Of a stretch of 64,000 bases of DNA, positions 29,220 to 33,275 are shown piece after piece (the first letter of the stretch is position 1; every line of letters begins with the position of its first letter). The stretch is from positions 1 through 64,000 of the forward strand of contig WFWZ01000004.1 of the NCBI GenBank assembly GCA_015490875.1. Reading direction: 5' to 3'. The position numbers and the translations under genes are program-made. The notes under the pieces are model-generated. The model was given only the letters and a program-made list of their open reading frames with translations. It was not told the origin of the DNA and searched no databases. The DNA comes from Planctomycetaceae bacterium. GTDB lineage: Bacteria > Planctomycetota > Planctomycetia > Pirellulales > Pirellulaceae.

Positions 29220-30401
29220 ATGGCCGCTGTAACACTTCTGACGAGCATCGACGCACTCGACCGACTCCGGCTTCGGTGGCACGCTCTGTGGCTCGAGACT
29301 CGGGATGCCGACCTCTTTCAAACGTATGGTTGGTTCCGAGCGGCGGTCGGTCGAGGGATCGACGGAGGCGCGCTGGTCGTCCGCGACGGACGGGACGTCT
29401 GCGGAGTCGTTCCCCTTCAGATCCAACGCCACCGCACGCCGCTGGGCGTCGCACGCATTCTTCGGTTCCCCATTCCCTCCTGGGTTCCCACGTTCGGCCC
29501 GGTCGGCCCCGAACCAACGCGAACCTGGCTCGCCGTTCTGGACTACCTCCGGCGACATGCGCACCAGTGGGATGCATGCGACTGGCGAGGCATCGACGTC
29601 GCGCACGTCGACCGACACCGCCTTGTCACAGCTTCCCGCTTTCGCGGCTTTCGGTTCACGGCAGTTCCCGAGTCGCATTGGCTGTGTCAGCCACTGGGCG
29701 AGACCGAACCGGCGCGTCAATGCGTGACGGGTGGCGAGTCGTGGGGGGCGCATGAATGTCAGGCTTTCCAGCGTGACCAATCCTCCTGTAGCGACTACAG
29801 GGTGGCCCGCGCAGGTCGCACCACGTGCTACGCCCTGCACCGGCCGAAGTTTCGCATCGAAACATCGGTGCCGCCACGACCAGCGATCGTCAATCCTTTG
29901 GATGCCACTTCCGCTGGAGAGCGAACGTGGGATGCAGCCGACGCGCCCACCGCAGAGACAGACGATGTCGTCTGGGGTTGTGCCACTGCCGAGGGAAAAT
30001 GGTCGCCGCTGCTACGTCGGGTCGGCGCGGCGACGGGGGACATCGTGCGTTACGGCGCTTGGCAAGGTAGCGTCCCGGTCGCCCAGTGGTGGGTTGTGCG
30101 CGGCGGGGAACACTGGTCCGTGATCGGCCGACAACGATGTGCCGGCGACTTAGGGGAAGCCGCGGAAGAGGAACTAGGCCACGAAGTACGGCACGATGCC
30201 CAGGCTGCCGGAAAGAAGCGCCTCTGGATCGTTGGCCACTGCGCACAATCTAAGCGACAGGCACCCGTCCGATACCTTGCGGCCAGCGGGCAATCCTGGA
30301 GCGGCCGGTGGTATGTTCTCCGCACTGCCAGGCGACTCAAGGCCGCCCGTCGATCGGCGGAAAAGGAAACACGGAACTGGGAACGTGTTCCCGTTCCATG
30401 A
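29220..30401 (+). CDS. FemAB/GNAT-like (BcsL/CelD-type) acyltransferase
   Basis: 393 residues, cytoplasmic by sequence. The N-terminal half (LRLRWHALWLETRDADLFQTYGWFRAA, later VVRDGRDVCGVVPLQ) and the C-terminal half (RYGAWQGSVPVAQWWVVRGGEHW) form the two GNAT-like lobes of CelD/FemAB proteins, which are found in exopolysaccharide and cellulose gene sets. Substrate unknown. The start at 29220 is where homology begins; the open frame upstream overlaps the divergent promoter region. The 3' end overlaps the convergent sulfatase gene by 65 bp (30337-30401). Confidence 0.75.
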   Translation: MAAVTLLTSIDALDRLRLRWHALWLETRDADLFQTYGWFRAAVGRGIDGGALVVRDGRDVCGVVPLQIQRHRTPLGVARILRFPIPSWVPTFGPVGPEPTRTWLAVLDYLRRHAHQWDACDWRGIDVAHVDRHRLVTASRFRGFRFTAVPESHWLCQPLGETEPARQCVTGGESWGAHECQAFQRDQSSCSDYRVARAGRTTCYALHRPKFRIETSVPPRPAIVNPLDATSAGERTWDAADAPTAETDDVVWGCATAEGKWSPLLRRVGAATGDIVRYGAWQGSVPVAQWWVVRGGEHWSVIGRQRCAGDLGEAAEEELGHEVRHDAQAAGKKRLWIVGHCAQSKRQAPVRYLAASGQSWSGRWYVLRTARRLKAARRSAEKETRNWERVPVP

Positions 30402-31911
30402 TCCTCCGGATCTTGGCGACGATCTCCGGATGCTCATCGGCCACATCGTGCTTTTCGCCGATGTCGGTGCGCAAGTTGTAGAGTTCGATCTTAAGCGGAT
30501 GGGGGTTGGATTTTGCCAGCATGCGCTGGCGGACTCCCTTCCAATCGCCCATGCGGACCGCTTGCTGTCCTCGGTAACTGGGAAACTCCCAATAGAGGAA
30601 CTCATGCTTGCGCTGGCGTTCGGGTTGTCCCAATAGCGTCGGCAAAAAGCTGATCCCGTCAATGCCCTCGGGCACCTGGCCGCCGGCTGCTTCCACGAGC
30701 GTCGGGAGGACGTCCCAAAAAGCGGAGATGTGGTCCGTTACCGTTCCTGGAGCGATCTTGCCAGGCCAACGCGCGATCATGGGCACGCGAATGCCGCCTT
30801 CGTAGAGGCTTCCCTTCAGCCCACGCAAAGGCCCGACGCTCGCGAAGAACGCCGCATCGACTTCCCGCGGCAAATGCGTCGTCCCATTGTCTGACGAAAA
30901 GAGCACCAATGTGTTCTCCTCCAAGCCAAGCTCGCGCAGCAAGGCGAGAATCATTCCCACCTCGCGATCGAGCCGGCTGATCATGGCCGCATAGGCCGCG
31001 CGCGGCGTTTGGTGCGGCGTGTATCCGTTGCCGGTAAACGGTGTCTCGGGCCACTGGCCAAGATAGGGCCGCAGCTCTTCGTCGGGGATGTGCAGGGCCA
31101 GATGCGGAATCGTGGACGGATAGTACAAGAAGAAAGGCTGGTCGCGATGGTTTCGAATGAACGCCAGCGCCTCGCGAATCATGTGGTCGGGAGCGTAGTC
31201 CTTTCCTTTGAAAGGAGCGTACGATGCGGGATCGTTAGGATCGGCACCTTTGGGAAGTCGTCCGTGACCCGGGATTGGTGGGTGGTTGTCCAGCAAGATC
31301 TTCTCATGGTTGCGCCACAGATGGCCTGGGTAATACGAATGAGCGTGCCCCTGGCAGTTGTAACCGAAGAAAAGATCGAATCCTTGCCGGTTCGGATCGC
31401 CCGTCGTTCCGATCTGGCCAAGCCCCCACTTGCCGATGGCCGCCGTTGCATAGCCCTGAGCTTTCAACAGTTCGGCAACGGTTACCGCCTCATCGGGGAT
31501 CGGTTCCTGACCTTGATACTCCAAGCCATAGCGCTCGAGGAACTCGCGACTGTGGGACGCGCGCCGGTTGCTGCGAATGTAGGCGTGCCCAGGATGGAAT
31601 CCGGTCATGAGGACACAGCGAGACGGAGCGCATACCGCGTTTCCGCAGTAGTGCTGCGTAAACCGCATCCCTTCGGCCGCCAGACGATCCAAGTTGGGCG
31701 TGCGAATCTTCTTCTGGCCATAACAGCCCAGTTCGCCATAGCCGAGGTCATCCGCCAGGATGTAGACAATGTTGGGAGGCCGCTTGTCAACGCCAGCTCC
31801 TTCGGCGCTCTGCGCGAGCGAGCCAACTCCCAACACACCGAGCCACCCGGCGCACCACAACAGGAGGTTAGACCACGAGATCGAGAAAGTCGAAACGGCA
31901 GGTTGTCGCAT
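30337..31911 (-). CDS. Type I sulfatase (arylsulfatase family)
   Basis: Exported sulfatase of 524 residues. Signal peptide 1-37, then the metal-binding PPNIVYILADDLGYGELGCYG and the maturation motif C94-A-P-S-R98, in which Cys is converted to formylglycine. TAAIGKWGLGQ supplies the second signature, and FSSDNGTTH plus GGIRVPMIARWPGKI are further active-site/structural blocks. It lacks its own maturation enzyme in this window. It starts 41 bp after the end of the candidate selenoprotein gene on the same strand, so the two may be co-transcribed. Likely role: desulfation of sulfated polysaccharides outside the cytoplasm. Confidence 0.94.
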   Translation of the reverse strand: MRQPAVSTFSISWSNLLLWCAGWLGVLGVGSLAQSAEGAGVDKRPPNIVYILADDLGYGELGCYGQKKIRTPNLDRLAAEGMRFTQHYCGNAVCAPSRCVLMTGFHPGHAYIRSNRRASHSREFLERYGLEYQGQEPIPDEAVTVAELLKAQGYATAAIGKWGLGQIGTTGDPNRQGFDLFFGYNCQGHAHSYYPGHLWRNHEKILLDNHPPIPGHGRLPKGADPNDPASYAPFKGKDYAPDHMIREALAFIRNHRDQPFFLYYPSTIPHLALHIPDEELRPYLGQWPETPFTGNGYTPHQTPRAAYAAMISRLDREVGMILALLRELGLEENTLVLFSSDNGTTHLPREVDAAFFASVGPLRGLKGSLYEGGIRVPMIARWPGKIAPGTVTDHISAFWDVLPTLVEAAGGQVPEGIDGISFLPTLLGQPERQRKHEFLYWEFPSYRGQQAVRMGDWKGVRQRMLAKSNPHPLKIELYNLRTDIGEKHDVADEHPEIVAKIRRIMEREHVPSSVFPFPPIDGRP

Positions 31912-31952: not shown

Positions 31953-33275
31953 TTACGGCGCGACGCCGAAGTAACCGGTATTCTCGACATAACGGCCGTT
32001 GCCGCCAGGCGGGATGCGGTCAGTGGGCGAATCGCCGGTGGCCAGCTCGAATGCGAAACCGAATGGACTGCGACCGGGGCGCTCCACGTACATGCTCTTG
32101 CCATTGGCGTCACCCCAGCGGCCCCAGATCTCACCCGGTGCCACGATATCGAATCGCGTAAACGCCTTCTTGGCTCGGTCGTACGCGAGCCGGCCGTACA
32201 ACGGCGTTTCGAATCCTAGACGCAGCGGACCATTGGGCGACGATGTCGCCTTAGATGCGTCGTAATCGCTTCCCCAATGGATGCGTCCCAACAGACGCAT
32301 GTGGATCATCTGCGGCGAGACATCGGTGACCACGAGCGATATCGACGCCTCTTGGACAAGCCGCCGCGGGACAATGCCGCCCTCGCTCGTCGTCGCTCGC
32401 CTCGGATTCAAATGAAACCGAGCCATCCGTTCGGCAATGGCCGGATCGACTTCCAACCGGGCACCTCGGATCGGATCTTTCGGAACCATGGCCCGCCACT
32501 CGTCGTGCGTGAGCCACATGTATTCTGTGTTCGGCTGCAGAAATTTCTGCCAGCGCCGGATGACGTCCGGCTTGTCACGCATCAGTGGGAAGTCGTCCGC
32601 CGTTGCCCGACGCAGCCGGCCGTTCCTTCCACGCGCAAGAAACCGAGCATGGACGCGCAGCACAAGTCCTCCCTTCGGTGGCGCGGGAATCACACGTTCA
32701 TCGGGCCGCAAGTCGCGAACGTGCACGGCGCCCGGAGCTCGTTCCGATTTCGGAAGCTTCTCGAAAGCCTCCAGCACTTTTGTGCTGGGGCGACGCCCAA
32801 GGAACTTGCCACTAGCCGAAATGCAACTCATGTAGCCGCTGGAGGTCACCCACTGTTTGTGGATACCGGCACTGCGGAGAAACTCGCCTTCGGGCGAGTC
32901 CGTACGGCAGACCCACGTGGGAACGCTGCACGCGACGAAGTGCTTCCGAATCAACTCAATCGTTTCATCATTCCAAAAGGTGACCTCACGGGTCACACCG
33001 CGTCCGGCCGTTCAGCAACCGGCAGCCGGCGCGCCGCCGCTGCCGGCCATCAAAAAGATCGGCTTGCCTTCGGCGGCCGCTTTCTTTCTCGCTTCCCACA
33101 CCGTCGGATACCAGTCGATTTCCATCCATCGCGACTCGCCGGGCTGTCGCTTGATCATCGCGTGGAGCGATTGGAACTCGGCATCGCTTATCGACCCCGG
33201 CTCACCGGCGCAAAGCGCCCCCGTCCACAAGGTCGCAATGACAGCCGACATAAAGCTGATCAGAAATCGCTGCAT
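31953..33275 (-). CDS. Exported thioredoxin-like protein, candidate selenoprotein with in-frame TGA at codon 88
   Basis: Read through the TGA at 33012-33014 this is a 440-residue protein. Residues 1-23 are a signal peptide and about 55-120 a thioredoxin-7-like segment (WEARKKAAAEGKPIFLMAG). The redox site is where Cys87 precedes the TGA (position 88), followed by VTREVTFWNDETIELIRKHFV. The C-terminal 300 residues have an unknown domain. The same frame stays open for 352 codons after the TGA, with coherent protein-like composition. A hairpin with a bulged U and G in its apical loop begins 13 nt downstream. Without selenocysteine this would be a nonsense mutant. The 3' part can start at a GTG (32996) but without a ribosome binding site. 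AAGGAACCGGAGA precedes the ATG at 33275. Confidence 0.65.
32979..32998 (-). promoter_or_regulatory. SECIS-like hairpin downstream of the in-frame TGA
   Basis: On the mRNA the stem GUGACC/GGUCAC (6 bp) closes a CGUGA loop, with a bulged U below it and one more G-C pair. The stem begins 13 nt, and the loop 21 nt, after the UGA, and the loop has G in second position. Bacterial SECIS elements have an apical loop about 16-37 nt downstream with G in the first two positions, and the fdhF element also has a bulged U. Fit is by eye, not folded computationally. Confidence 0.55.

Follow-up and report, generated by a model that had tools for sequence, protein, structure and literature searches.

A new, apparently uncatalogued family of probable selenoproteins with a Cys-Sec thioredoxin-like domain in Planctomycetota and three other phyla

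The window, i.e. the whole 64,000 nt stretch of Planctomycetaceae bacterium contig WFWZ01000004.1 analyzed here, carries on its minus strand a gene with an in-frame TGA at codon 88. Comparison with its homologues makes it very probable that this codon is read as selenocysteine (Sec) and that the gene belongs to a large family of selenoproteins, which is new and apparently uncatalogued. A likely reading is a nearly obligate-Sec family, present in four phyla (Planctomycetota, Verrucomicrobiota, Chloroflexota and Armatimonadota) and made up of exported redox proteins with two domains, in which Sec is not simply exchangeable for Cys, the genes are amplified, members tend to escape searches for Sec/Cys pairs, and the C-terminal domain represents a new fold. 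As part of the same reading, the loss of Sec would usually lead to Ser, Asp or Pro and be accompanied by the loss of the partner Cys. The features of the locus are as follows.

31953..33275, minus strand: putative selenoprotein gene, 441 codons including the stop; 440 residues if the TGA encodes Sec
33207..33275, minus strand: N-terminal hydrophobic stretch of about residues 1-23, a probable signal peptide, from the translation read by eye
32736..33143, minus strand: thioredoxin-like domain, covering about residues 45-180 and holding Cys87-Sec88, from AlphaFold, Foldseek and profiles
33012..33014, minus strand: in-frame TGA, codon 88, predicted Sec88 right after Cys87, in the same column as the TGAs of homologues
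32980..32996, minus strand: SECIS-type hairpin GUGACC-CGUGA-GGUCAC, with a 6-bp stem, a 5-nt loop and a conserved GU
32986..32990, minus strand: apical loop CGUGA, containing CGU, the codon of Arg96
31956..32693, minus strand: C-terminal beta-rich domain (about residues 195-440), AlphaFold pLDDT 92.3
30337..31911, minus strand: neighboring sulfatase gene, probably unrelated, whose stop is an ordinary TGA

The frame runs from an ATG at 33275 to a TAA at 31953, and the TGA of codon 88 (33014-33012), immediately preceded by TGC (Cys87), is its sole internal stop codon, exactly as the earlier note had described. The 352 codons beyond the TGA had been called protein-like, and this description held: the alternative frames in this part contain 9 and 11 stops, pN was 0.18-0.30 against pS of 0.60-0.70 in comparisons with close relatives, and dN was well below dS. 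These values point to purifying selection on the sequence past the TGA.

We searched 297 genomes of the order, 25 of which had matches, and nearly all full-length matches contained exactly one TGA. About a hundred further matches were obtained by a profile search of 392 genomes of the phylum, and scanning named genomes contributed another 80 loci, which belong to Planctomycetota, Verrucomicrobiota, Chloroflexota and Armatimonadota. The TGA occupies one column in 143 of the 154 aligned homologue sequences, a set that contains a few duplicate entries of a gene. In this column, six of the other sequences have Ser, two have Asp, and Pro and Cys occur once each; one sequence is unassigned. The earlier note had proposed to look for Cys or Sec in homologues at position 88. 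The Sec column was retained, but the Cys versions on which such a test usually relies were nearly absent (1/154), the replacements being mostly Ser or Asp. The demand for Cys-containing homologues is a habit of detection methods and not a defining feature of selenoproteins. Among the TGA-free matches, six were examined as possible hidden Cys versions; they turned out to be contig-end fragments, frame-broken or Sec-containing.

Two main motifs were found around the TGA, GGAPAAGCU in the clade of the window protein and GHPLGCTU. In a quick tree, the former clade forms one branch with full support, while its main sister clade has Cys-x-Sec instead of the vicinal Cys-Sec. The non-Sec copies are nested in Sec clades, requiring six changes, and in most of them the adjacent Cys is gone too. 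These six changes from Sec, mostly to Ser or Asp and not to Cys and some of them in genomes without selA, provide a natural test of the need for selenium. A divergent subfamily (L030, L034 and L040) carries the motif DERCU or DARCU, and L030 has in addition a long C-terminal extension.

Standard gene calling splits the window gene into an 87-aa ORF and a 347-aa ORF, and a GTG at 32996, six codons past the TGA, is a possible start of the latter. In databases, family genes are probably annotated as truncated fragments. Such calls agree with the TGA being a real stop, whether in a pseudogene, through a sequencing error or between two separate proteins of 87 aa and 347 aa. We regard this explanation as highly improbable, because the identical TGA is present in the 143 sequences, purifying selection acts on either side of it, the thioredoxin fold bridges it, the homologues without TGA have a single unbroken frame, and the presence of the gene follows that of selA. 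The occurrence of the TGA in well over a hundred genomes independently means that it is not a read error.

If the TGA is decoded as Sec, a SECIS element is expected downstream. The hairpin was reported to start 13 nt after the UGA, which is correct when the pair below the bulged U is included; otherwise the distance is 15 nt. The loop sits 21 nt after the UGA. In the Escherichia coli fdhF SECIS, the bulged U is at nt 17 and the GU at nt 23-24. The window hairpin resembles this element in being a stem-loop right after the UGA with GU in the apical loop, and in the homologue L014 both the bulged U (nt 17) and the GU (nt 23-24) are placed as in E. coli. Unlike in fdhF, the upper stem of the window hairpin is longer (6 bp) and its loop is one codon further downstream, and another clade uses a shifted register with the loop at nt 26-30. 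In this second register (L016, L018, L067, L071, L073, L075, L076 and L078-L081), the loop reads R-GU-CY and the Arg codon has changed from CGT to CGR or AGR, which forms the stem. The family thus shows two SECIS registers tied to codon choice. The published limits for bacterial SECIS elements are a loop of 3-9 nt, a stem of 4-16 bp, a G at loop position 1 or 2, a distance of 16-37 nt from the UGA and an energy of <= -7.5 kcal/mol (PMC13188914). The window hairpin lies within all of them, with its CGUGA loop, 6 bp, 21 nt and -7.5 to -8.3 kcal/mol.

The fold of the hairpin region as a single sequence did not surpass that of dinucleotide shuffles (z = -0.07), so the hairpin is unconvincing and only suggestive when judged from one sequence. 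The global folding energy was only weakly shifted relative to synonymous recoding (mean z -0.65; 8/56 at p <= 0.05), and we therefore tested a specific motif and its covariation instead. The motif, consisting of four stem pairs and a GU loop in either of the two registers, was compared with controls in which the same peptides were recoded with synonymous codons. It was present in 43 of 56 Sec genes (recoded control: mean 1.4, max 5), the set on which it had been defined after inspection, and in 60 of 71 Sec genes of a nearly independent hold-out sharing <90% identity with the first set (recoded control: mean 1.3, max 5). None of nine homologues without TGA contained it. The earlier note had suggested a covariance-model fold, and all four core pairs indeed covary across homologues: in the 24 type-1 hairpins, two-sided changes were found at all four pairs (25 cells), pairing is kept in 96.9% of cells, and covariation scored 0.80 versus 0.25 in shuffles (0/500 shuffles), although kin sequences are not independent events. 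In slid controls that keep this kinship, the score dropped to 0.18 or less.

Codon usage in the loop follows the same pattern. An invariant Arg lies some seven to eight codons past Sec, and its codon is CGT in 36/56 Sec genes as compared with a background of 10.7% in the remainder of these genes (p = 1e-21), in 60/71 genes of the second Sec set (the codon corresponding to Arg96) and in 0/9 non-Sec genes. The apical loop C-GU-GA is built from the CGU of this codon, and the loop is imperfect (CGGGG) in a few members, among them the close relative L012. Across homologues, the hairpin shows the behavior expected of a bacterial SECIS element.

All of selA, selB, selC and selD, which the earlier note had named as the genes to look for, are present in the genome of the window (5.68 Mb, 429 contigs, 94.7% complete). 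The selA match scored 569.6 bits, well above the NCBIfam cut-off, and selB reached about 358 bits, above its cut-off once the pieces were joined. The tRNA-Sec gene (selC) scored 66.3 bits, above the Rfam gathering score, with the anticodon TCA assigned by ARAGORN, and two selD genes above the cut-off contain one internal TGA each (G000:C223:35886-36806 and G000:C216:2894-3820). Among the genomes of the order, selA exceeded the cut-off in 16 of the 17 with a TGA copy versus 82 among all 297 (Fisher p = 5e-9). In the wider phylum sample, selA was matched in every genome with a TGA copy, although a contig end cuts the match short in a few cases. No selA was found in the genomes with only a Ser or Pro version (G393, G468 and G588) or in that of the sole Cys version. 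Searches for selA were also negative in two genomes with a TGA copy, G026 (92% complete) and G683, the Chloroflexi MAG holding L148, which is possibly incomplete or contaminated. The presence of the gene tracks selA.

An open frame across a TGA alone does not prove Sec, as the codon might be reassigned to Trp or read through with a standard amino acid under stimulation by the hairpin. This is still less probable than a genuine stop. Ordinary TGA stops terminate neighboring genes of the window, among them the sulfatase gene and the upstream gene, so TGA is not reassigned, and several homologues also end in TGA. The residues replacing it are Ser, Asp, Pro and Cys but never Trp, the hairpin has the layout of a bacterial SECIS with a GU loop, and selA is found in all but two of the TGA-copy genomes tested. 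For Sec insertion, we propose that SelB with Sec-tRNA(UCA) would bind the hairpin just past UGA-88 and insert selenocysteine, so that the ribosome would make the 440-residue protein.

The N-terminus suggests that the protein is probably exported. AlphaFold modeling with 69 family members gave a mean pLDDT of 89.8 and a thioredoxin-like fold spanning codon 88, in line with the thioredoxin-like context that had been noticed around the TGA; Sec88 is placed in the loop following the first strand of this domain. In a Foldseek search of the thioredoxin-like domain against the PDB, the top hit and closest structural match was AGR3 (3ph9; probability 0.95 but E 0.019), which differs in being eukaryotic and lacking both Sec and the C-terminal domain. 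The C-terminal domain gave no PDB match at E <= 0.001 in Foldseek, also when modeled alone (pLDDT 92.3). Wherever this domain was detected, the frame encoding it almost always had the length expected of a family member. Trp254, Glu259, Arg283, Arg286, His288 and Glu298 are invariant or nearly invariant in this domain, and they likely mark a ligand-binding or active site, as judged from their conservation.

On the basis of the modeled fold and the Cys-Sec pair, we consider a redox mechanism quite likely. The vicinal Cys87-Sec88 would cycle between the selenol/thiol and selenenylsulfide states and reduce or oxidize some substrate outside the cytoplasm, while the conserved C-terminal domain may bind the substrate or a partner. 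The neighboring Cys is missing in some Sec members, which have FVU, VVU or AGU instead. This, together with a sulfatase gene starting (ATG at 31911) 41 bp downstream, a spacing that was reproduced, would fit a selenoprotein that does not engage in thiol/selenol exchange, e.g. one binding a metal or selenium with the sulfatase as its operon partner. We think this unlikely: adjacent Cys and Sec residues in a thioredoxin fold favor redox chemistry, and Cys is lost along with Sec in most non-Sec copies. The functional link to the sulfatase hinted at earlier did not hold up either. A sulfatase homologue was found at only a few loci of close relatives, and we rejected an operon because the pairing is not conserved in most of them; the sulfatase is probably a chance neighbor.

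We compared the family with known thioredoxin-like families. One of them is VPGUxxT (NF041382/NF041383), which also occurs in Planctomycetota and carries Sec in the same loop region; its thioredoxin domain is related to that of the family according to hhalign (probability 85%, E 5.6e-6). However, Sec88 aligns to the second Cys of VPG(U/C)xxC and not to its Sec, and the C-terminal domains do not align. Membership in VPGUxxT was rejected, as these models gave no match for the window protein and only sub-threshold matches far below the cut-offs among the 69 members, and the VPGU motif is absent from the family, which has GGAPAAGCU or GHPLGCTU. Two in-frame TGAs are seen in some planctomycete VPGUxxT (NF041383) genes (L188, L194, L195, L198 and L200). 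Thioredox_DsbH/DUF255 (PF03190, e.g. 3ira; 17.6 bits against a Pfam gathering score of 27) and Thioredoxin_7 (PF13899, below its gathering score) match the thioredoxin-like domain weakly, but their CxxC is replaced by CU or CxU in the family and the C-terminal domain differs. The Trx7/PDZ family (NF041199) likewise has a Thioredoxin_7-type domain with Sec, but its motif is CxxU and it carries a PDZ domain; it did not match the window protein, and a divergent member scored 16.9 bits against a cut-off of 300.

Searches of the 69 members against Pfam and NCBIfam (June 2026) gave sub-threshold matches only. An inventory from 2026 comprises 119 prokaryotic selenoprotein families and subfamilies (PMC13188914), and no entry in it has the motif of this family. 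The earlier remark that this is not a classical selenoprotein family thus agrees with the absence of any Pfam or NCBIfam model or inventory entry describing it. We found no description of the family in the literature searched, where a prior partial listing is possible (PMC4807772 table S9; Haft and Tolstoy, 2025). Planctomycetes of Porphyra were reported in 2016 to have selenoproteins (PMC4807772), and some family members may already be listed in the supplement of that paper. The new selenoproteins found by deep-Sep are all reported to have Cys homologues (PMC12013277), while this family has almost none, which marks a blind spot. It would enlarge the list of 119 families substantially, in phyla barely discussed in the papers on selenoproteins consulted.

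Three features of the family are unusual: Cys versions are nearly absent, its SECIS elements come in two registers, and its genes are locally amplified. An array of seven family genes side by side on one strand occurs in a MAG of Gemmataceae (SHZY01000147.1; L115:3199-12723); each has its own in-frame TGA, and the seventh is cut by the contig end. In two genomes (L092:4607-12756 and L093:1204-8403), a family gene is located by a CDP-alcohol phosphatidyltransferase gene and a cluster of a Pyr_redox/SelD fusion, SelA and SelB. In a group of Verrucomicrobiota genomes (L157, L162, L170, L172, L173 and L175), the gene lying almost immediately after the family gene encodes a terpene-cyclase-like repeat protein that contains a CFSCHH motif.
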